From Acidihalobacter prosperus (lineage in GTDB: Bacteria > Pseudomonadota > Gammaproteobacteria > DSM-5130 > Acidihalobacteraceae): 64,000 bases of DNA. The notes under the pieces were generated by a model. It saw nothing but the letters and a program-made list of their open reading frames with translations. It ran no database searches and was not told the DNA's origin. Location: positions 933,501-997,500 of the forward strand of contig NZ_JQSG02000006.1 of assembly GCF_000754095.2 (NCBI RefSeq), given 5' to 3'. The first letter of the stretch is position 1; each line of letters begins with the position of its first letter. Made by a program: the position numbers and the translations under genes. Below, piece by piece: positions 3,531-15,613 of the stretch.

Positions 3531-3560
3531 GGTGCTCAGCCCTGGCCGCGGCTGAGCACC
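3531..3560. terminator. Inverted repeat between convergent genes
   Basis: A perfect 11-bp inverted repeat (GGTGCTCAGCC at 3531-3541 and its complement at 3550-3560) has an 8-base loop. It sits just after the stop at 3527 and includes the last codons of the minus-strand regulator ending at 3536. The position fits a two-way transcription barrier. No T-tract follows on either strand, so classical intrinsic termination is not certain. Confidence 0.5.
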
Positions 3561-4414
3561 AGGGTCGCCGCCGCCGTGCGCGTTTCCACGCCGAGTTTCT
3601 CGAACACGTGTTCCAGGTGCTTGTTCACGGTGCGCGGACTGATGTCGAGGATCTCGCCGATTTCGCGGTTGGTTTTGCCCAGCGCGACCCAGTAGAGCAC
3701 CTCGGCCTCTCGCGAGGTGAGAGGGAACCAGCGCGCCAGCACTTCCGGTTCGGGCAGCGAGGCGTGACGCTGGATGGACAGCAGCCCCGGTTCGATCAGG
3801 CTGAACAGCAGGCGCTCGCCTTCGTGCCACAGGGCATAGGGCGTTTCCATGGCGTCCGAACCCAGCAGCCAGTGGCGCAGCGGCAGCGGCAGGCGATCGT
3901 CGTCCACCAACGTCTGCAGCCAGCGCTGGGCGAGCGGGGTTGCCCAGACGATCGCGTGTTGCGCGTCGAAGGCGACGATGGCGCGTCCAGCCGAATCGAT
4001 CGCCGCGCGCGTGTGGCTCATCAGCCGGGCGCGCTGCATGTGCGTGGCGATGCGGGCGAGCAATTCGTCGATGACCACGGGTTTGGCGACGTAATCGGCT
4101 CCGCCGGCCTGGAAGCCCTGCACGATATGTTCGGTATCGCTCAGGCCGGTCATGAAGATCACGGGGATGTCGCGCGTGTCCAGTCCCTGCTTGAGGCGGC
4201 GACAGGTCTCGAAGCCGTCGATACCGGGCATCATCGCGTCGAGCACGATCACTTCCGGCGCCAGCCGCCGCACGCTCTCGATCGCGGCGAAGCCGTCCGT
4301 GGCGACACGCACCTCGTAGCCGTGCGTCTGCAGGCTGTCGTGGATCATGCGCAAGGTTTCCGGCGTATCGTCCACCAGCAGTACCGTGCCCGCTCCAGGC
4401 GTCCGCTCATTCAT
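3536..4414 (-). CDS. Two-component response regulator, REC plus LuxR-type HTH
   Basis: The 292-residue protein has an N-terminal receiver domain (about 10-130) with the acidic pair DD near residue 15, phospho-acceptor Asp59 in VIVLDAMMPG, and the conserved Lys in YVAKPV. A middle PAS-like stretch (about 135-215) follows, then a C-terminal LuxR-type helix-turn-helix (LTSREAEVLYWVALGKTNREIGEILDISPRTVNKH). Its start overlaps the end of the permease-kinase gene by 8 bp, so the two are co-translated and almost certainly form one signalling pair. By context it probably controls the divergent permease-amidase genes; that target is inferred. Confidence 0.93.
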   Translation of the reverse strand: MNERTPGAGTVLLVDDTPETLRMIHDSLQTHGYEVRVATDGFAAIESVRRLAPEVIVLDAMMPGIDGFETCRRLKQGLDTRDIPVIFMTGLSDTEHIVQGFQAGGADYVAKPVVIDELLARIATHMQRARLMSHTRAAIDSAGRAIVAFDAQHAIVWATPLAQRWLQTLVDDDRLPLPLRHWLLGSDAMETPYALWHEGERLLFSLIEPGLLSIQRHASLPEPEVLARWFPLTSREAEVLYWVALGKTNREIGEILDISPRTVNKHLEHVFEKLGVETRTAAATLVLSRGQG

Positions 4415-7400
4415 CCTGGGTCATCCGTTCCAGCAGCCGCATGTAATCGTTCAGTCGGAAATCGCGTGCCGGTTCGCGCAGACGCTGCGCGAACGCAGCA
4501 TAGCGCGGTGCCTGGCGCTCGATGACGTCGAGACGGTCCAGTATGCCCCGGATATGGCCGACGCTGCCGAGTTCGTGCAGCACCTGCAGGGTGGCGGCGT
4601 CGGGGCGGTCTTCGACCAGAGCGGTCTTTGCCGCCGCTGCGGCCGGTGACGCAGCCTTGTCCGCGCGCGTGATCCATTCGAGGCCTAGCCGCATTTGCAG
4701 ACAACCCAGGAGCGCATCGATATCCACCGGCTTGCTCAGAAAGTCCTCGTGCGCGATGCCGGCGTCATTGTCTCGCCCCCGATCCTGGACGTTGGCGGAA
4801 ATGACCAGGATGGGCGCCTGGGAAAGACCGTTCTCGCGCAGCAGGCGGGCGGTTTCCCAGCCGTCGAGTCCGGGCATGTTCAGGTCCATCAGAATCATGT
4901 CCGGGCGGAAAGCGGCGGCGGCGCGCAGCGCCTCGATACCCGATTCGGCCTCGGTCACCTCGAAACCGAGCGGCTTGAGCACGCTGAGCAGCAGACCGCG
5001 ATCGACCAGTTCGTCGTCGATCACGAGGATTCGCCGGCGCGGACCGGCATAGCCGGTGATGTCGGGCGGCGGCAGGCTGGCCATGGGGCCGGGGTTGCGC
5101 ACCTCGGGCAGAAACAGCCGCAGACGGAACAGGCTGCCGCCACGTTTCGGACTGTGCACCGTCAGTTCGCCGCCCATCACCGTCGCCAGCATGCTGGCGA
5201 TGGTCAGGCCGAGACCGGCGCTGCCGCCAGCGTGGCCGGCGGCGTTGCCGCCGCGTTCGAAGGGCAGGAAGATGCGTTCGCGGTCGGCCTCGGAGATGCC
5301 GATGCCGGAGTCCTCGATTTCGAAGCGCGCCATTTCGCCGCGGTAGAACAGGCGGAAGATGACCTGTCCCTGATCCGTGAATTTGACCGCGTTGCCGAGG
5401 ATGTTGATCAGTATCTGGCCCAGGCGTTTCTTGTCGACGCGCACGACCTTGGGCAGTTCGTCGCGTACGTCGAACACGAATTCGATACCCTTTTCGCTCG
5501 CCTGCAGCCGGAACATGTCGGCGAGCTGGGCCACGTATTGTGGGAAATGGATCTGTTCCTGCTCGATCGCCAGCTTGCCGGCCTCGATCTTTGAAATATC
5601 GAGCAGGCCGTCGATCAGCGAGACCAGATGCTCGCCGCTGCGTCGAATCACGCGCATCGCCTCGCGTCGATTGGCGGGCACTTCGGGGTCGTGCTCGACG
5701 ATCTGCGCGTAGCCGAGAATGCTGTTGAGCGGCGTGCGCAGCTCGTGACTGATGCCGGCGAGGTAACGGCTCTTGGCCTGGTTGGCGCGTTCGGCGACCT
5801 GAATCGCGGCCTGCAGCTGGGCATCGGTCTGGCGATGGGCCTCGATCTCGTTCATCAACAGGTGCGTCTGGCGATTGGATTCGTCCTGGGCGACGTAGCG
5901 GCTTTCCACCGTCAACACCAGCCACCAGCAGCCGGCGGCGGCGAAAAACAGCAGGATTACATAGAAACGGAACAGCAGCGTGCGCAGTGAGGCGAGGGTT
6001 TCCTCGCTCGCCGTGCCGGTGGCCTGCTGCAGGTAGAGCAGCGAGAGCACGATGCCCAGGATCACCGCGGTGGTCACCATCAGCATGAGGTAATAGCCGA
6101 GGCGGGTGTTCACGCGCGCCGACAGCGGGCGGGGCAGCAGCCAGTGCAGGGCGTTGACGAACTGCTCCGGCAACCCGGCCCCAGGACGGCAGAGATCGTG
6201 GCAGCGCGCATCCAGCGTGCAGCACAGCGAGCAGATCGGGCCGCGGTAGGCCGGGCAGTGGGCCATATCCTCGCCTTCGTATTCCTTCTCGCAGATGACG
6301 CAGCGCCGCGCCTGCGATGCGGATACCGGCTCAGGCTCGCGCGCGAGGTAGTAGCGCCCATGCGTCATCCAGGCGATGACCGGCGCCACCACGAACGCGG
6401 TGCCGAGGGCGATGAAGGCCGAAAAGGCCTGCGCCAGCGGGCCGAGCCAGCCGGTGAAGGCGACGATGGACAGCGTCGAGGCGACCAGCAGCGCGCCCAG
6501 TCCCACGGGGTTGATGTCGTAGAGGTAGGCGCGCTTGAACTCGATCCCCGGTGGACTCAGGCCCAGCGGCTTGTTGATCACGAGGTCCGCGACCAGTGCG
6601 CCGACCCAGCTGATGGCAATGTTGGAATACAGCCCCAGCACGTGCTCCAGGGCGTCGAACACGCCCATTTCCATCAGCAGCAGGGCGATCAGCACGTTGA
6701 ACACCAGCCACACGATGCGCCCGGGGTGGCTGTGGGTGATGCGCGCGAAGAAATTGGACCAGGCGAGCGAGCCGGCGTAGGCGTTGGTCACGTTGATCTT
6801 GATCTGCGAGACCACCACGAACAGCGCGGCGACGGCCAGCGCCCAGGCGGGCGAGTCGAACACGTAGCGAAAGCCAATCTCGTACATTACGGCCGGCTGC
6901 TTGGCGTCGGCCACGCTGGCGCCGGCCTGCAAGGCCAGATAGGCGAGCAGCGCCCCGGCCATCAGCTTGAACACGCCGAATACGATCCAGCCAGGCCCGG
7001 CGAACAGCACTCCGGCGAACCAGCGTTTACGGTTGCGCTGCTCCAGCGGAGGCATGAAGCGCAGGTAATCCACCTGTTCGCCGATCTGCGCGATCAGGGC
7101 GAGGGTGACGCTGGTGGCCGCACCGAAGGCAAGCAGGCTGAAATGGCCGCCGCCGTCCTCGCCGCCGAAGGCGATGAGCCGCCGCACGACGCCGGGATCC
7201 TGCCAGAGCACGCAGACATAGGGCAGCGCCAGCAGTACCAGCCACAGCGGTTGGGTCCAGATCTGCAGACGGTTGATTACGGTGATGCCGTAACCGACCA
7301 GCGGCAGCACCACCAGCGCGCTGAACAGGTATGAAGGCGTGATGCCGATGCCCAGGTATAGATGCAGCGCCTGCGCCATGATCGCCGCCTCGATGGCGAA

Positions 7401-7820
7401 AAAAATGAAGGTGAAGGAGGCGTAGATCAGAGAGGTGATGGTCGAGCCGATATAGCCGAAGCCCGCGCCGCGGGTCAGCAGGTCCATGTCGAGGTTGTAC
7501 TTGGCGGCGTAATAGGCGATGGGCAGGCTGGTCAGGAAAACCATCGCGGCGACCGCCAGTGCGGCCCAGAAGGTGTTGACGAAGCCGTACTGCACGGCGA
7601 GGGTGCCGCCGATCGCTTCCAGCGCCAGGAACGAAACCGCGCCGAAGGCCGTGTTGGCGACGCGGAAAATCGACCATTTTCGGAAGGTGCGCGCGGTATA
7701 GCGCAGTGCATAGTCTTCGAGCGTTTCGTCGGCGACCCAGGATTTGTAGTCGCGGCGGATCTTGATGACCCGTCTCTGCGGTGCAATCCCCGGCGCAGCG
7801 GTGCTGCGTGGACCCTTCAT
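4407..7820 (-). CDS. Hybrid sensor histidine kinase with an NCS1-type permease as sensor domain
   Basis: This 1137-residue fusion has four parts. Residues about 40-495 form a complete NCS1 (purine/cytosine) permease-like membrane domain with about 12 helices. About 507-545 is a Cys-rich motif (CVICEK..., CSLCCTLDARCHDLC). Two further membrane helices follow (about 570-650). The cytoplasmic part is a HisKA domain with His692 in SHELRTPLNSI, an ATP-binding domain (GNAVKF, DSGIGIS, GLGLTI) and a receiver domain with Asp979 in MILMDLNMPG. The start at 7820 was chosen because AAAGGG lies just upstream and the homologous permease begins at the same place; an earlier ATG at 7958 adds only low-complexity sequence. 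The neighbour at 8266 is a free permease with the same Cys-rich tail. The likely role is sensing an amide or related N-compound; the ligand and any transport activity are unknown. Confidence 0.93.
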   Translation of the reverse strand: MKGPRSTAAPGIAPQRRVIKIRRDYKSWVADETLEDYALRYTARTFRKWSIFRVANTAFGAVSFLALEAIGGTLAVQYGFVNTFWAALAVAAMVFLTSLPIAYYAAKYNLDMDLLTRGAGFGYIGSTITSLIYASFTFIFFAIEAAIMAQALHLYLGIGITPSYLFSALVVLPLVGYGITVINRLQIWTQPLWLVLLALPYVCVLWQDPGVVRRLIAFGGEDGGGHFSLLAFGAATSVTLALIAQIGEQVDYLRFMPPLEQRNRKRWFAGVLFAGPGWIVFGVFKLMAGALLAYLALQAGASVADAKQPAVMYEIGFRYVFDSPAWALAVAALFVVVSQIKINVTNAYAGSLAWSNFFARITHSHPGRIVWLVFNVLIALLLMEMGVFDALEHVLGLYSNIAISWVGALVADLVINKPLGLSPPGIEFKRAYLYDINPVGLGALLVASTLSIVAFTGWLGPLAQAFSAFIALGTAFVVAPVIAWMTHGRYYLAREPEPVSASQARRCVICEKEYEGEDMAHCPAYRGPICSLCCTLDARCHDLCRPGAGLPEQFVNALHWLLPRPLSARVNTRLGYYLMLMVTTAVILGIVLSLLYLQQATGTASEETLASLRTLLFRFYVILLFFAAAGCWWLVLTVESRYVAQDESNRQTHLLMNEIEAHRQTDAQLQAAIQVAERANQAKSRYLAGISHELRTPLNSILGYAQIVEHDPEVPANRREAMRVIRRSGEHLVSLIDGLLDISKIEAGKLAIEQEQIHFPQYVAQLADMFRLQASEKGIEFVFDVRDELPKVVRVDKKRLGQILINILGNAVKFTDQGQVIFRLFYRGEMARFEIEDSGIGISEADRERIFLPFERGGNAAGHAGGSAGLGLTIASMLATVMGGELTVHSPKRGGSLFRLRLFLPEVRNPGPMASLPPPDITGYAGPRRRILVIDDELVDRGLLLSVLKPLGFEVTEAESGIEALRAAAAFRPDMILMDLNMPGLDGWETARLLRENGLSQAPILVISANVQDRGRDNDAGIAHEDFLSKPVDIDALLGCLQMRLGLEWITRADKAASPAAAAAKTALVEDRPDAATLQVLHELGSVGHIRGILDRLDVIERQAPRYAAFAQRLREPARDFRLNDYMRLLERMTQDE

Positions 7821-7959
7821 ATTGCCCTTTTCCCGAATGCGATTCCGTCCAGGACGCTGTTGACCGGTATGCCCCGGAAGCCCCGCCCACACAGCGATAT
7901 GCCCGCTCTGGGCGGGTGTCGCCATGGAACCAGCATGGAGCGGATATACGTAGCTCACT

Positions 7960-7977
7960 ATACGTCGGATGACGTAT
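7960..7977. promoter_or_regulatory. Candidate operator palindrome ATACGTC-N4-GACGTAT
   Basis: A perfect 7-bp inverted repeat with a 4-base spacer lies in the divergent intergenic region. The right arm, with two preceding bases, makes ATGACGTAT, which recurs at 8058-8066. A related ATACGTA lies just upstream (about 7945-7951). Symmetry, repetition and position suggest a binding site for the LuxR-type regulator encoded next door; this is inference. Confidence 0.45.
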
Positions 7978-8054
7978 CTGGTGGGAAGTCAGATTAATTA
8001 ATGCCAATTAAAACAGATTTTTACGTTATCGGGCGCTGCGTTTCCCCGCTGGGG

Positions 8055-8069
8055 GGAATGACGTATTCC
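8055..8069. promoter_or_regulatory. Candidate operator GGAAT-GACGT-ATTCC
   Basis: An inverted repeat with 5-bp arms and a 5-base core carries the second copy of ATGACGTAT in the divergent region, on the permease side. It lies about 200 bp before the permease start. A related GACGTATT also occurs at 20945-20952 upstream of the APC permease gene, which may be chance. Confidence 0.35.
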
Positions 8070-8265
8070 GGGGAATTTCGGGGGTTTGTAAGCTGCAAGG
8101 CGTCGGCGAGAAGACCCTTGCCAAGGATCGAGCGGCAGGCGCGGGGGCGATTTCGCGGCACGCGCCTGCAGGGCGCAGCGCCGACACACGGGCAGTCAAT
8201 TCAGCGTCGTCATCGGCCTCGCAGCCGAGTTTGCGGGAATCAGCACACAGTCGAGGAAGCTAATC

Positions 8266-9945
8266 ATGAGTACACCGTCAACGGCAATACCCAAGGGACG
8301 AGCAGGTGGGCGCTCGTTCAACAAGCTCGTCAGCAATCCTGTTCTGGAGGATTATTCGCTGCGCTATGCGCCGAGTTCGTTCCGCAAATGGTCCGAATTC
8401 GCCGTGGCCTCCACGGCCCTGGGCGGCATCGCCTATCTCGCGGACCAAGCCATCGGCGGCTCGCTGGCCATCGAGTTCGGTTTCGCCAACGCGCTGTGGG
8501 GAATTCTCGCCGCCGCGCTGATCATTTTCCTGACCGGTATCCCGATCGCCTATTATTCGGCGAAATACAACGTCGACGTCGACCTGCTGACCCGCGGCGC
8601 GGGTTTCGGTTATCTGGGGTCGACCATCACCTCGATCATCTACGCCTCCTTCACCTTCATATTCTTCGCGCTCGAAGGCTCGATCATGGCGCAGGCCTTC
8701 GAACTGTATTTCCACATACCCCTGTGGATCGGCTATGCGCTTGCCTCGCTGATCATCATTCCTCTGGTGGTGTTCGGCATGACCTTGCTGTCCAAGCTGC
8801 AGGTGTGGACCCAGCCGATCTGGCTGACCCTGTTGTTCGCGCCGCTGATCGCGGTGCTGATCGGCGACCACCAAGCGCTGTCCGACTGGACTTCGTTCGC
8901 CGGAAAATCGCCTTCGGCGGGCTTCAATCCCTTGCTGTTCGGCGGCGCAGCCGGTATCGCTCTGTCGCTGATCGCGCAGATCGGCGAGCAGGCCGACTAC
9001 CTGCGCTTCATGCCGGCGAAGACCAAGAGCAATGCCTGGAAATGGTGGCTGGCGGTGATGCTGGCCGGCCCGGGTTGGGTCATCCTCGGTGCGAGCAAGC
9101 AGCTGATGGGTTCGCTGTTCGCCTCGGTGGCCGCTTCGCACGGTACGCCGCTCGATCAGGCCAACGAGCCGATCCAGATGTATGTCAGCGGTTTCCACTA
9201 TATTTTCCCCAGCGCCTTCGTCGCGCTGACCATCGCGACCTTCTTCGTGATCCTGTCGCAGATCAAGATCAACGTGACCAATGCCTATTCGGGCTCGCTG
9301 TCCTGGTCCAATTTCTTCTCGCGCACGCTGCACACCCATCCCGGTCGCGTGGTGTGGATATTCTTCAACGTCGGCATCTCGCTGACGTTGATGGAAGCCA
9401 ACATGTTCCACGTGCTGGGGCAGATCCTCGGTTTCTATTCGAACGTCGCGGTGGCCTGGATCGGCGCGGTGGTGGCGGATCTCGTGATCAACAAGCCGCT
9501 GCTCAAGCTGAGCCCGTCGTACCTCGAGTTCAAGCGTGCGCACCTTTACAACTTCAATCCGGTCGGCTTCGGCGCCATGGTGATCGCCTCGATCATCTCG
9601 ATCCTGGCCTTCTTCAACTTCTTCGGCCCGTATGCGCACGCCTTCTCGACCTTCATCGCCCTGGGCGTGGCCTTCGTGCTGTCGCCGATCATCGCGATCA
9701 TCACCAAGGGCAAGTACTACATCGCCCGCGATCCGCACTACCACGCCGGCACGCATCATGACGTCCTCAACTGCAGCTCCTGCGGCTTCGAGTACGAGAA
9801 GGACGACATGGCCTGCTGCCCGCACCATGAGGGACCGATCTGCTCGCTGTGCTGCTCGCTGGAGTCCTCCTGTCACGACATGTGCAAGACGGGCACTTCG
9901 ATCAATGGCGTCAAGGTCGTGACCATGCCCGAGCGCTGCGGCTAG
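8266..9945 (+). CDS. NCS1-type (purine/cytosine permease family) transporter with Cys-rich tail
   Basis: The 559-residue inner-membrane protein has about 12 hydrophobic helices, closely similar along its length to the sensor half of the kinase at 4407-7820 (shared stretches include DLLTRGAGFGY, QIGEQ, DYLRFMP and SQIKINVTNAY). A C-terminal Cys-rich module begins at residue 503 (CSSCGFEYEKDDMACC, CSLCCSLESSCHDMC), probably metal-binding on the cytoplasmic side. Followed by formamidase and amidase genes, so short-chain amides such as formamide, or urea, are the likely substrates; specificity is inferred from context only. The start ATG is preceded by a GAGGAAG ribosome-binding site. Confidence 0.88.
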   Translation: MSTPSTAIPKGRAGGRSFNKLVSNPVLEDYSLRYAPSSFRKWSEFAVASTALGGIAYLADQAIGGSLAIEFGFANALWGILAAALIIFLTGIPIAYYSAKYNVDVDLLTRGAGFGYLGSTITSIIYASFTFIFFALEGSIMAQAFELYFHIPLWIGYALASLIIIPLVVFGMTLLSKLQVWTQPIWLTLLFAPLIAVLIGDHQALSDWTSFAGKSPSAGFNPLLFGGAAGIALSLIAQIGEQADYLRFMPAKTKSNAWKWWLAVMLAGPGWVILGASKQLMGSLFASVAASHGTPLDQANEPIQMYVSGFHYIFPSAFVALTIATFFVILSQIKINVTNAYSGSLSWSNFFSRTLHTHPGRVVWIFFNVGISLTLMEANMFHVLGQILGFYSNVAVAWIGAVVADLVINKPLLKLSPSYLEFKRAHLYNFNPVGFGAMVIASIISILAFFNFFGPYAHAFSTFIALGVAFVLSPIIAIITKGKYYIARDPHYHAGTHHDVLNCSSCGFEYEKDDMACCPHHEGPICSLCCSLESSCHDMCKTGTSINGVKVVTMPERCG

Positions 9946-10050: not shown

Positions 10051-11274
10051 ATGGAAACCCTGATCAAGGTAGATATAAACAAATCCCCCGAGGAGCAGGC
10101 CGACGTCCTGCACAACCGCTGGCACCCGGACATCCCGATGGTGGCCATGGTCAAGCCCGGCGCCGAATTCCGCATCGAATGCATCGACTGGACCGGCGGC
10201 CAGATCGGCAACAACGACAGTGCCAACGACGTGCGCGACGTCGATCTCACCAAGGTTCACTACCTCAGCGGCCCGGTCGGGGTCGAGGGCGCCGAGCCCG
10301 GCGACCTGCTGGTGGTCGACATTCTCGACGTCGGCGTGCTGCCCGACTCGGCCTGGGGCTTCAACGGCCTGTTCGCCTTCGAGAACGGCGGCGGCTTCCT
10401 GACCGACCACTTCCCCGAGGCGAAGAAGTCCTGTTGGGACTTCCACGGCATCTACACCTCCTCGCGCCACATCCCGAACGTGCAGTTCGCCGGCGTGATG
10501 CATCCCGGCCTGATCGGCTGCCTGCCCTCGCACGAGCTGCTCGCCGAGTGGAATAAGCGCGAGGCCGAACTGGTCGCCACCGACCCCGAGCGCGTGCCGC
10601 CGCTGGCCGCACTGCCCTACGAGGACACCGCGCTGATGGGACGCCTGACCGGCGACGCGGCGGCCAAGGCGGCCAAGGAGGGCGCGCGCACCGTGCCGCC
10701 CCGCGAGCACGGCGGCAACTGCGACATCAAGGATCTGACCAAGGGCTCCAAGGTCTATTTCCCCGTCTACGTGGACGGGGCCGGGCTGTCCATGGGCGAC
10801 ATCCACTTCTCCCAGGGTGACGGCGAGATCTCCTTCTGCGGCGCCATCGAGATGGCCGGCTACCTCGATTTGCGCGTCAGCCTGATCAAGGGCGGCGTGG
10901 CCAAGTACGGCATCAAGAACCCGGTGTTCAAGCCGAGCCCGCTGTCGCCCAAGTACGAGGACTACCTGATCTTCGAGGGCATTTCCGTCGACGAGAAGGG
11001 CAAGCAGTACTACCTCGACGCGCACGTGTCCTACAAGCAGGCCTGCCTCAACGCCATCGAATACATGAAGAAGTTCGGCTACTCCGGCGAGCAGGCTTAC
11101 GCGATCCTGGGCACCGCGCCGGTGCAGGGCCACATCAGCGGCATCGTCGACATTCCCAACGCCTGCGCCACGCTGTGGCTGCCGACCGGGATCTTCGACT
11201 TCGACATCAACCCCGACGCCGAAGGACCGAAGCTGCTGGTCGATCCGGGCGTCAGCCTGGCCTCCACCAGCTGA
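10051..11274 (+). CDS. fmdA: Formamidase (FmdA/AmdA acetamidase-formamidase family)
   Basis: The 407-residue protein matches the Methylophilus-type formamidase: METLIKVDINKSP at the start, NRWHPDIPM, DWTGGQIGNNDSANDVRDVDL, the HPGLIGCLPS block, REHGGNCDIKDL and MGDIHFSQGDGEI. These carry the conserved Asp, His and Glu residues of the family. It hydrolyses formamide (and other short amides less well) to formate and ammonia in the cytoplasm. It lies between the permease and the FmdB-like gene, on the same strand. A purine-rich AGGGAGT precedes the ATG. Confidence 0.95.
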   Translation: METLIKVDINKSPEEQADVLHNRWHPDIPMVAMVKPGAEFRIECIDWTGGQIGNNDSANDVRDVDLTKVHYLSGPVGVEGAEPGDLLVVDILDVGVLPDSAWGFNGLFAFENGGGFLTDHFPEAKKSCWDFHGIYTSSRHIPNVQFAGVMHPGLIGCLPSHELLAEWNKREAELVATDPERVPPLAALPYEDTALMGRLTGDAAAKAAKEGARTVPPREHGGNCDIKDLTKGSKVYFPVYVDGAGLSMGDIHFSQGDGEISFCGAIEMAGYLDLRVSLIKGGVAKYGIKNPVFKPSPLSPKYEDYLIFEGISVDEKGKQYYLDAHVSYKQACLNAIEYMKKFGYSGEQAYAILGTAPVQGHISGIVDIPNACATLWLPTGIFDFDINPDAEGPKLLVDPGVSLASTS

Positions 11275-11288
11275 GGGAGGTCGCGACG

Positions 11289-11609
11289 ATGCCTCTGTAC
11301 GACTACGCGTGCCCCGGCTGCGGGGATTTCTCGGCGTTCGCGCCCATCGCGCACGCGTCGGCGCCCGCGGCCTGTCCGGCGTGCGGCGAGGATGCCCCGC
11401 GGGTGATTACCGCGCCCGCGCTGGCGCTGATGCCGTCCGCGCTGCGTCAGGCCCATGCGCGCAGCGAGAAGAGCGCGCACGAGCCGCGGCGGGCATCGAA
11501 GCGCAGCTGCGGCTGCCACGGCTCGCATACCTGCGGTACCGGCGCGGCCAAGCCCGCGCTCAAGACCGCAGCTGCCTCCGCCGCCCGCCCGTGGATGCTC
11601 GGGCACTAG
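11289..11609 (+). CDS. fmdB: FmdB-family zinc-ribbon protein
   Basis: The 106-residue product starts at the ATG at 11289, preceded by GAGGGAGG at 11272-11279; upstream in-frame codons belong to the overlapped fmdA end. The N-terminus MPLYDYACPGCGDF and CPACGEDAP form two CxxC knuckles of a zinc ribbon. The C-terminal half has a second Cys/His-rich patch (CGCHGSHTCGTG), then low-complexity Ala-rich sequence. FmdB proteins accompany formamidase genes and are thought to regulate or assist them; the mechanism is not established. Confidence 0.9.
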   Translation: MPLYDYACPGCGDFSAFAPIAHASAPAACPACGEDAPRVITAPALALMPSALRQAHARSEKSAHEPRRASKRSCGCHGSHTCGTGAAKPALKTAAASAARPWMLGH

Positions 11610-11700: not shown

Positions 11701-12744
11701 ATGAGACATGGAGACATTTCGTCCAGCGCGGATACCGTCGGCGTCGCCGTCGTGAACTACAAGATGCCGCGCCTGCACACCAAGGCCGAGGTGCTGGAGA
11801 ACGCCCGCAAGATCGCCGACATGGTGGTGGGCATGAAGCAGGGCCTGCCCGGCATGGACCTCGTCATCTTCCCCGAGTACAGCACCCACGGGATCATGTA
11901 CGACGCCAAGGAGATGTACGAGACCGCCTCCGAAGTGCCGGGCGCCGAGACGGAGATCTTCTCCGCGGCCTGCCGCAAGGCCAAGACCTGGGGCGTGTTC
12001 TCGCTGACCGGCGAGCGCCACGAGGAGCATCCCAACAAGGCGCCGTACAACACCCTGATCCTGATCAACGATCAGGGCGAGATCGTGCAGAAGTATCGCA
12101 AGATCATGCCCTGGTGCCCCATCGAGGGCTGGTATCCGGGCGGCAAGACCTATGTCACCGAAGGGCCGAAGGGTCTGATGGTGAGCCTGATCATCTGTGA
12201 CGACGGCAACTACCCCGAAATCTGGCGCGACTGCGCGATGAAGGGCGCCGAGCTGATCGTGCGCTGTCAGGGCTACATGTATCCGTCCAAGGACCAGCAG
12301 GTGGTGGTCGCCAAGGCGATGGCCTGGATGAACAACAGCTACGTCGCCGTGGCCAATGCCACCGGCTTCGACGGCGTGTACTCCTACTTCGGCCACTCGG
12401 CCATCGTCGGCTTCGACGGCCGCACCCTCGGCGAATGCGGCGAGGAGGAATATGGCATCCAGTACGCCGAGCTGTCCGTCTCGCAGATCCGCGATGCGCG
12501 CAAGCACGGCCAGTCCGAGAACCACCTGTACAAGCTGCTGCACCGCGGCTACACCGGCATGATCAACTCCGGCGACGACGTCAACGGCGCCCTGGAATGC
12601 CCCTACGAGTTCTACAAGACCTGGATCACCGATCCGGCCCAGGCTCGCGAGAACGTGGAGAAGATCACCCGCGCGACCCCCGGCACCGCCGAGTGCCCGA
12701 TTCCGGGCATTCCCAACGAGGCCACCCCGGGCGGTCACAAGTAG
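11701..12744 (+). CDS. amiE: Aliphatic amidase
   Basis: The 347-residue protein is nearly co-linear with Pseudomonas AmiE (nitrilase superfamily), beginning MRHGDISSS. The catalytic triad is intact: Glu59 (VIFPE), the Lys in YRKIMPW (about 134) and Cys166 (LIICDDG). It hydrolyses short aliphatic amides such as acetamide and propionamide to the acid and ammonia. It is the second, unrelated amide hydrolase of this island, 91 bp after the FmdB-like gene. A GGAGAG ribosome-binding site lies just upstream. The specialised formamidase AmiF is related, but the N-terminus favours AmiE. Confidence 0.95.
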
Positions 12745-12833
12745 GCGTGCCATGAGCGGCCTGCGGGCCGTTCCGCTTGGGCTCCGGCGGCGGGGTGCGC
12801 GAACGCGCCCCGCCGCACGGGCAGGGAGTGCGC

Positions 12834-14657
12834 ATGTTGGCCCGTAGACATGACGAGGTGCCCGCCGTGGCGGCGGGAGAAAACGGGGACGCCGTCGCCC
12901 TCGCCGACGTGCGTCGCCGACTGACGCTTTATCTCACCGCATTGTGGGGGCAGGGTTTCGAGGTCGAGGCCTTGCCCGACGACCAGGACGCGACGCGGCC
13001 GATCCTGCGCGAGCGGACCATCCTGCTGCCGGCGCGCATGCGTCCGGCCGGCGGGTTGCCGGCCATCACCCACTATCGCGCTGCGGCGGTGCATGCCGCC
13101 GCCCATGCGCTCTATTCGACCCCATTCGATCCCGAAGCGCTCAAGCCGCGCCAACGTCTGCTGGTCGAGCTGATCGAGGATGCGCGGGTGGAGTGGCTGG
13201 CTGCGGCGCGCTTCCCGCGCCTGCGTGCCTATTGGCTGGCGCTGCATCCGCCGTTCACCGACGACGGCATGCCCTTCGCGCGTCTGATCGGTCAGCTGGC
13301 GCGGGCGCTGGCGGCGCCGCACGCGGCCTACCGCGACGATTACTGGGTGGACAAGGGGGTGTCCCTGTTCCTGGAACGTCTGCCCCGCCTGCACGAACCG
13401 GCGGTCTCGCGCGAGATCGGGCTTCGGCTCGCGCACGATCTCGGCCAGATGCGCCTGTCCATGGACGAGAGCGGTGCACCGCCGCCGCTGGCGAGCTACC
13501 GCGACGACAACCGCCATCTCTGGCGCGAGGTGCGCGAGATGCTGTCCGGCGAGACCGAGGAGGCGGCGCCGCAGGAGCCGCAGGCGACGCACCCCGAGGC
13601 GTTTCTGGAAGAGTCCGAACAGGGCAGGCGCTTCGCCTTTGCCGAGAACGGTGAGACGGGCGGCGACGCGGGCGCTGGCTACCGCGTCGAGGTCGATCCG
13701 GAGCGAGCCCGGCTGTCCTTCAAGGTCAGTGCGGAGGCGGAAGCCGAATCCGCGGCCGTGCGCTATCCCGAGTGGTTCGAACATCTGGGCCTTGCGCGCC
13801 CGGACTGGTGCACCCTGCGCGAGCGTGCGGCCGCGGTGGGGGACGCCGAGGCGGCCGAACGGCTGCTCGCGGCGCGCGCACCGCTGCTGCGCCGCCTGCG
13901 CGGCGTGGTCGGTGCGCTGCGCGCGCGCCGGGTGGTACGCCTGCGCGCGCAGGAAAGCGGCGACGATCTCGATCTCGATGCCGCCATCCGCATTCTTGCC
14001 GATATCCGCAACGGCGAGGTGCCGGACGCCTTCGTGTACGAACGCCGGCAGACGCTGCACGATCCGGCCTTCACCGCGACCCTGTTGCTGGATCTGTCGG
14101 AATCGGTCAATGCCGCGGACCCGGCGAGCGGCCGCAGCGTGCTCGAACTCGCGCGCGAGGCAGCGCTGCTGCTGGGTCAGGTGATGAGCGGTCTGGGCCA
14201 CGCGCTGGCGATCGCCGGCTTCCGCTCCAACGGGCGTCACGAGATCGACTACGTGCGGGTCAAGGGTTTCGCCGAGGGCTTCGGCGAGCGCGTGCGCGGC
14301 CGGCTGTGCGCGCTCGAAGGCGGCGGCTCGACACGCATGGGTGCGGCGATCCGCCATGCCGCCGACGAGCTGGCGCGGGAGGCGGCGCACCGCCGGGTGC
14401 TAATGGTGGTGACCGACGGCGAACCCTCGGACATCGATGTGTTCGACGAGGCGCATTTGGTGCATGACGCGCGCCGGGCCGTACTGGAGGCGCGTGCGCG
14501 AGGGGTGCAGACCTTCTGCGTGAGCCTCGATCCGCGCGCCGACGCCTATGTCGAACGCATCTTCGGAGCTGCCCATTTTCTGGTGCTGGACCGGATGGAG
14601 GCCTTGCCGGAGCGCCTGACGCAACTGTTTCTGAGGTTCGCGCGTGCGGCACGCTGA
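12834..14657 (+). CDS. VWA-domain protein of the NorD/CbbO family
   Basis: The 607-residue protein has an N-terminal region typical of NorD (VHAAAHALYSTPFDPEALKP, ARVEWLAAARFP) and a C-terminal von Willebrand A domain. Its metal-ion-dependent adhesion site is complete: DLSES, the Thr of GGGSTRMG, and TDGEPSDID. The start at 12834 was chosen because AGGGAG lies 5 bases upstream; the longer ORF from 12777 has an unconserved leader. Relatives work with a MoxR-type AAA+ ATPase (NorQ/CbbQ) to activate metalloenzymes. In Pseudomonas the amidase operon includes AmiB, an ATPase of that kind, but no ATPase partner is encoded here. The client is unknown. Confidence 0.85.
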   Translation: MLARRHDEVPAVAAGENGDAVALADVRRRLTLYLTALWGQGFEVEALPDDQDATRPILRERTILLPARMRPAGGLPAITHYRAAAVHAAAHALYSTPFDPEALKPRQRLLVELIEDARVEWLAAARFPRLRAYWLALHPPFTDDGMPFARLIGQLARALAAPHAAYRDDYWVDKGVSLFLERLPRLHEPAVSREIGLRLAHDLGQMRLSMDESGAPPPLASYRDDNRHLWREVREMLSGETEEAAPQEPQATHPEAFLEESEQGRRFAFAENGETGGDAGAGYRVEVDPERARLSFKVSAEAEAESAAVRYPEWFEHLGLARPDWCTLRERAAAVGDAEAAERLLAARAPLLRRLRGVVGALRARRVVRLRAQESGDDLDLDAAIRILADIRNGEVPDAFVYERRQTLHDPAFTATLLLDLSESVNAADPASGRSVLELAREAALLLGQVMSGLGHALAIAGFRSNGRHEIDYVRVKGFAEGFGERVRGRLCALEGGGSTRMGAAIRHAADELAREAAHRRVLMVVTDGEPSDIDVFDEAHLVHDARRAVLEARARGVQTFCVSLDPRADAYVERIFGAAHFLVLDRMEALPERLTQLFLRFARAAR

Positions 14658-14760: not shown

Positions 14761-14901
14761 GACACGCCGATTAAATGAGCGAGCGGGATGAGATGCAAGG
14801 CGCACGCGGCCCAGCGATCGAGACATATCGAATGGATAGGCGAGGGAGCGAGCAGCGCGCAACGCAGCAGATCGCGCGCGCAGCCATTTAATCGGCGTGT
14901 C
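14761..14901. repeat. MITE-like element, 141 bp, 17-bp terminal inverted repeats
   Basis: GACACGCCGATTAAATG at 14761-14777 is repeated exactly in inverted orientation at 14885-14901. The interior is GC-rich with motifs of the type GCAAGGCGC and GCGCAACGC and has no coding potential. No target-site duplication is obvious. The element ends only 16 bp before the GntR start and so may carry part of that gene's promoter. Confidence 0.65.
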
Positions 14902-14917
14902 CTTGGGGAGCAGAAGG

Positions 14918-15613
14918 ATGTCAGGCTATCAGGAGGCTGCAGACTACATCGCCGCACAGATCGGCGACGGGCAGCTCAAACCCGGCGAGCAACTCATTTC
15001 GGAGCGCCAGCTGAGCGAAACGGTGAAGGTTTCGCGCCAGACCCTGCGCGCGGCGCTGCTCAAGCTGGAGGCCGACGGCCTGATCTACGGGGTCAGCCGG
15101 CGCGGCTGGTTCGTCAGCCCGCCGCGCTTCGTCTACGACCTCGAACGCCGCGCCAACTACAAGGCGATGGCCGAGGCCCAGGGCCGGCGGCCCGAAATCC
15201 GTCTGCTCGAAAGCGGCCGCGTACGCCTGCGCGAAGTGCCCACAGCGGCACGCGATAGGCTGGGGTCATCGGTCTGCCGATTGCGCCGCGTGCGTTTCCT
15301 GGACGGGCGTGCGGTGATGTCAGAAACCATCTACCTCGCCGCCGAAGTGCTGCCCGGCGTGCTGGGCCGCAACCTCGCCGATTCGGTCACCGCGCTGCTC
15401 AAGGACGGCTACGGCATCGACATCGACCGCGAGGAAACCCAGGTCCGTTCGACCCTGCTCGACGCGACCCAGGCGGCCGCCCTCGGCGTCGCTCCGGCGA
15501 CCCACTGCCTGTCCATCGAACGCGCCCGCTACTCCGGCGAAGCCTTGATCGAGTTCGACGTGGAGTGCTGGCTGCCGGGCGCCATCGAAATCCGCCTCAC
15601 CTCCACAGCCTGA
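14918..15613 (+). CDS. GntR-family (HutC/UTRA type) transcriptional regulator
   Basis: The 231-residue protein has an N-terminal winged helix (ADYIAAQIGDGQLKPGEQL, SERQLSETVKVSRQTLRAAL, LEADGLIY) and a C-terminal UTRA ligand-binding domain (about 75-230, ending in IEFDVECWLPGAIEI). The start at 14918 is supported by GGGGAG 7 bases upstream; a GTG at 14897 lies inside the repeat element. It heads the amine/amino-alcohol island. A palindrome of the HutC-subfamily operator type sits at 15785-15800 before the next gene. The inducer is probably an amine or its phosphorylated or aldehyde product (inference). Confidence 0.92.
   Translation: MSGYQEAADYIAAQIGDGQLKPGEQLISERQLSETVKVSRQTLRAALLKLEADGLIYGVSRRGWFVSPPRFVYDLERRANYKAMAEAQGRRPEIRLLESGRVRLREVPTAARDRLGSSVCRLRRVRFLDGRAVMSETIYLAAEVLPGVLGRNLADSVTALLKDGYGIDIDREETQVRSTLLDATQAAALGVAPATHCLSIERARYSGEALIEFDVECWLPGAIEIRLTSTA

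Follow-up and report, generated by a model that had tools for sequence, protein, structure and literature searches.

Gene organization of the locus

The window analysed here, a stretch of 64,000 nucleotides from Acidihalobacter prosperus, contains a minus-strand gene (4407..7820) for a receptor that joins an NCS1-like permease to a hybrid histidine kinase, as identified from Pfam domains, alignment and an AF2 model. The open reading frame holding this gene (4407-7958, minus strand, 1183 residues) is real and opens with a GTG at 7958. That codon is an unlikely start; translation likely begins at the ATG at 7820, which has AAGGG ahead of it, giving a protein of 1137 residues. HisKA, HATPase_c and REC domains each score over their Pfam cut-offs and the H, N and G boxes are conserved, identifying the protein as a hybrid histidine kinase, while its N-terminal 700 residues match nothing in Pfam. 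The Pfam scan detected no Hpt domain in the kinase, which makes the phosphate route proposed below less certain. The permease part spans approximately residues 26-490 and is followed by a module of eight cysteines (residues 507-544). In the full-length AF2 model, which is of moderate confidence (pLDDT 72.7, pTM 0.52, with values mostly of 51-67 for the long helix around residues 640-710), the permease bundle leads into the Cys module, which contains short strands, then into TM13 (about residues 573-600), after which residues 606-709 form one unbroken helix that comprises TM14 and continues into the DHp domain. The transporter and kinase are thus connected, in this model, by TM13 and a continuous helix, with no separate four-helix domain between them. 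HATPase_c, REC and a helical tail complete the C-terminal half.

The kinase stop codon is overlapped by 8 bases by the gene for a LuxR/FixJ-type response regulator (REC + GerE; 3536..4414, minus strand). On the plus strand, a free NCS1-like permease of 559 residues (8266..9945), recognized by alignment and AF2 fold and carrying a C-terminal eight-Cys module, is followed by the formamidase FmdA (10051..11274; NCBIfam equivalog, 798 bits against a cut-off of 500), an FmdB-type zinc ribbon protein (11283..11609; PF09723 in the open reading frame 11175-11609), homologues of which also adjoin other kinases, and an AmiE-type aliphatic amidase (11701..12744; NCBIfam equivalog, 714 bits against a cut-off of 427). 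Directly 3' of the amidase gene lies a VWA-domain protein (12777-14657), and a GntR/UTRA regulator (14897-15613) is most like PhnR, with a score under the PhnR cut-off. An AAA ATPase is encoded near AmiE at other loci; the 64-kb window yielded no homologue of this ATPase.

Between the kinase and permease genes, at 7961..7976, lies TACGTCGGATGACGTA, an exact copy of the palindrome TACGTCNNNNGACGTA and a predicted site for the response regulator. TACGTCNNNNGACGTA was derived from eight-base words common to the regions upstream of 89 kinases, those of close species not being independent, and in these same 89 regions it is exact in 57 and has at most one mismatch in 74; five shuffled sets contained zero copies at 0-1 mismatch. 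The hits span beta-, gamma- and alphaproteobacteria. The copy at 7961-7976 is the only exact one in the A. prosperus genome, and three genomes of the genus each have one exact copy, always between kinase and permease. These comparisons support the view that the divergent permease-amidase operon would be controlled through a dedicated palindrome. The palindrome is missing upstream of many urease-linked methylotroph kinases, indicating that target sites differ between branches.

The permease fold and the eight-cysteine module

The N-terminal part of the kinase and the free permease align along their length, as the earlier note had claimed, with 53% identity and 71% positives over 543 columns that include the Cys module (BLASTP, 605 bits); the alignment score of 1550 compares with 46 ± 6 for shuffled sequences. 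The two domains represent neighbouring branches of one family rather than distant subfamilies, and at the search threshold they are its sole members in the genome, two PF02133 proteins being encoded elsewhere, away from the locus. The permease half of the kinase is full length, keeps motifs common to the free permease and its NCS1 relatives, and, across the kinases, the transmembrane part is as conserved as the Cys module.

The description of this half as a full NCS1-type permease, also made in the earlier note, required qualification. Neither the kinase nor the free permease matched PF02133 or an NCBIfam transporter model (E 0.1 and 0.01), and the kinase showed no SLC5 family match in Pfam. 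A cytosine permease-like protein from Pantoea (L153) is, however, a member of PF02133 (39.2 bits versus a cut-off of 23.5), and a 7.3-Gb search linked it to the window permease at E 1e-26. Modelled with AF2 (pLDDT 74.5), the free permease is most similar in fold to CodB (Z 28.3 over 388 residues) and Mhp1 (Z 27.8 over 409), although identity to these proteins is 16% or less; Nramp (Z 23.7) and SLC5 (Z 21.5 or less) folds score below the NCS1 folds. The structural links depend on this fold comparison because sequence searches of solved structures found no relative: the family profile returned one chance zinc-finger match and nothing else, and L153 retrieved no NCS1 structure. Given the PF02133 intermediate and the CodB/Mhp1 fold match, the permease family is a divergent branch of NCS1. 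The sensor half is covered by no Pfam or NCBIfam model, and sequences like the kinase are usually annotated simply as 'ATP-binding protein'.

The same Cys-rich module follows both transporter parts, with CSLCC and CHD[LM]C in each, again as noted earlier. It conforms to the pattern C-x2-C-x11-C-x7-C-x2-CC-x5-C-x3-C, in which the eight Cys are invariant in 27 aligned sequences. All 145 fused open reading frames scanned (redundant loci counted) have the full pattern, as do 5 of 14 free permeases; those of Acinetobacter and Moraxella retain about four Cys and the actinobacterial forms are variable. The invariance of the cysteines makes metal control through the module possible. Two kinases adjoining urease (L171:8273-11923 and L172:6560-10657) have extra residues between permease and module. 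In one sister genome (G001; L159:7803-9551) a second, more distant free permease has all eight Cys and none of the amide genes tested nearby, while a free actinobacterial relative on an Arthrobacter plasmid (L151:6758-9677), which adjoins a bioB-like gene in a biotin-type gene run, has lost most of them.

Distribution and proposed function of the receptor

The fused design occurs in hundreds of bacterial species, beside genes for the uptake and breakdown of small nitrogen compounds. When 398 Pseudomonadota genomes were sampled for permease-kinase architectures, 52 gave strong matches, and in each of these at least one matching open frame was 894 residues or longer. Relatives were also located at 530 loci of a species collection and in 531 plasmid records, 342 of them from Klebsiella. 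A transporter-kinase receptor of NCS1-like type is therefore common across the Pseudomonadota. The fused receptor is widespread, and a free permease that keeps the whole Cys module is a rare form; close relatives of the window permease were found in two sister genomes and in Methylovirgula HY1, where a 79% identical free permease adjoins its own kinase, regulator, fmdA, fmdB and amidase genes. In a Methylophaga MAG (L068:9841-11023) the kinase frame is broken, leaving a 394-residue open reading frame.

Of 77 complete kinases in the scan set, 76 are directly followed by a gene for a LuxR-type regulator, and the exceptions met in a wider set have other outputs. UrtA (53), FmdA (48), UreC (15) or AmiE (12) lies within 10 kb at 68 of 80 loci, a count that depends on identity cut-offs and rises to 76 of 80 when these are loosened. 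The gene classes behind it, formamidase, amidase, urease and urea-type transporter, probably point to short amides or urea as the kinase ligand, consistent with the amide-type substrate suggested in the earlier note. Where UrtA-type transporters adjoin formamidase, their substrates may be amides instead of urea, a suggestion already made for Pseudomonas veronii (PMC13209695). No gene for amides or urea lies within 9 kb of the Azospirillum (L017) or Tistrella (L018) kinase. Free relatives adjoin fmdA in Tsukamurella and Moraxella, and urease in Acinetobacter and genome G663. Columns that separate formamidase-linked from urease-linked kinases exist (for example residue 150), confounded with phylogeny. 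On a Klebsiella pneumoniae plasmid (L152:3906-13378) the kinase adjoins urtABCDE and a formamidase, a cluster resembling the UTS cluster discussed for Klebsiella lineage CG307 (PMC13060141), and an excerpt of a genome paper shows a kinase and LuxR regulator adjoining a second urt operon, the excerpt passing over the sensor domain (PMC13296017).

The architecture supports the view that the permease half is the sensor half of the hybrid kinase. Fairly probably, the protein is a receptor for short amides or urea that signals through TM14 and the long helix to turn on the divergent operon of permease, formamidase and amidase genes. The ligand (formamide, acetamide, urea) would bind in the NCS1-fold domain, and the resulting change in the 12-helix bundle would pass through the cytoplasmic eight-Cys module to the extra transmembrane pair. 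As the modelled helix 606-709 spans TM14 to DHp, the AF2 model suggests that ligand-driven movement may be passed along TM14, the last transmembrane segment, which is continuous with the DHp helix, to the kinase, where it would alter the kinase/phosphatase balance. Phosphate would then reach the LuxR-type regulator encoded beside the kinase, which is predicted to bind the palindrome and activate the divergently transcribed permease-fmdA-fmdB-amiE genes, perhaps together with its own operon.

The kinase might also transport its ligand, acting as a transceptor, with signalling following the transport cycle, a reading that is plausible though less probable than a receptor function. The full-length permease half with its shared motifs is consistent with such a role, and CbrA transports histidine (PMC7918813). 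At most loci, however, the kinase has a separate importer beside it, either a urt-type ABC system or a free permease, so that a second transporter is unneeded, and Ks-Amt5 binds ammonium without translocating it (PMC5764959). It is improbable that the Cys module, as a zinc, nickel, iron-sulfur or redox site, is the main sensor and the permease chiefly an anchor or modulator. The invariant cysteines and their much more consistent retention in fused than in free forms would fit this role, as would the urease genes that adjoin some kinases, since urease requires nickel. Against it, the transmembrane part is conserved to an equal degree and the window's free permease retains the module though it has no kinase. 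Sensing of uptake by contact with a partner transporter, instead of by the kinase's own ligand binding, is more doubtful again: the kinase and free permease genes lie side by side here, in both sister genomes, and in Methylovirgula and Acinetobacter, but for most kinases the genome encodes no homologue of the free permease. In Acinetobacter baumannii (L178:8347-13623) the kinase lies head to head with an actinobacterial-type free permease, a second pair of receptor and free relative.

Beyond the standard receptor, five fused proteins have other outputs: PAS-GGDEF-EAL (L160), PAS-PAS-kinase-REC (L161) and a kinase without REC (L162, L163 and L164). The sensor half thus travels as a module, being fused to several outputs, and four of these five proteins have no adjacent LuxR-type regulator. 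In L160 (L160:6849-10526, contig 3 of G531) the permease-Cys-TM module is joined to a cyclic-di-GMP output. A broader proposal, which we advance tentatively and consider rather less likely than not to hold in full, is that an NCS1-like permease, an eight-Cys metal or redox site and a signalling transmembrane pair form a portable receptor module that may read short amides or urea plus metal or redox state, joined variously to a hybrid kinase, a PAS-kinase, a REC-less kinase or PAS-GGDEF-EAL.

Origin of the fusion and comparison with known systems

The window kinase falls among kinases from other families; it is 73% identical to one from the same family and 60-68% identical to those of Burkholderiales and Pseudomonas. 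With conventional NCS1 proteins as the root, an LG+G4 tree unites all 75 fused rows in one clade (97/99), to which the window-type free permeases are sister, and has free forms at the base. A mixture-model tree keeps the standard hybrid kinases together (97/99) and leaves the order of free and fused forms at the base unresolved. Forcing the window kinase to group with the window-type permeases cost 311 log units and was rejected (p-AU 2e-55); judged from these sequences, the fusion is therefore old and shared, and was not made at this locus. The window free permease is unlikely to derive from a receptor by loss of the kinase part. Few free forms besides this one have the complete Cys module, and the mixture model gives no resolved base order, but the LG+G4 tree places free forms basally with the fused forms in their single clade, and such a clade was not rejected (p-AU 0.28). 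Recent duplication of the permease and fusion of one copy to a kinase at the locus, the origin proposed in the earlier note from the 53% identity and adjacency of the pair, is ruled out by the same AU test, and Methylovirgula has the same free permease beside its own, different kinase.

Transporter-kinase receptors have been described as rare (PMC13022988). We found no description of an NCS1-type transporter-kinase architecture in the open-access literature, and this receptor type has probably not been described before. Closest in design are the SLC5/STAC kinases (CrbS/MxtR with CrbR, CbrA, RpuS), in which, as here, a whole transporter fold acts as the sensor with a kinase behind it. CrbS and RpuS are, like the window protein, hybrid kinases with a LuxR-family regulator, and CrbR uses an inverted repeat, the ACTU motif, comparable to the palindrome at the window locus (PMC5715377, PMC9100948, PMC7918813). 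The differences are that the fold is SLC5 in those proteins and NCS1-like here; that they contain STAC and PAS where the window kinase has its eight cysteines and, in the AF2 model, two TM segments running into an unbroken helix; and that their context is acetate, histidine or pyruvate, whereas here it is amide/urea. On the features tested the window kinase falls outside the SLC5/STAC family. Ks-Amt5 likewise fuses a transporter fold to a histidine kinase as a sensor of a nitrogen compound, but differs in transporter family, ligand class and lineage.

Among the NCS1 proteins, Mhp1 and CodB handle nucleobases or hydantoins, whereas the genes beside the free permease point to amides or urea; the permease also differs in lying outside the PF02133 cut-off and in its C-terminal Cys module. 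The presence of this permease beside the receptor makes transport and sensing comparable on two versions of one fold. The enzymes encoded in the window (FmdA, FmdB, AmiE) are those of the fmd operon of Methylophilus methylotrophus and of the amidase controlled by AmiC/AmiR. Induction of the fmd cluster by formamide and urea has been reported (PMC10781810), and the sources consulted on that cluster name no membrane sensor for fmd. The NCS1-like receptor is a candidate sensor for such amide/urea-inducible operons, including the Klebsiella plasmid clusters whose urea uptake is under study. AmiC/AmiR control employs a soluble binding protein and an antiterminator, in contrast to the membrane receptor kinase encoded here.
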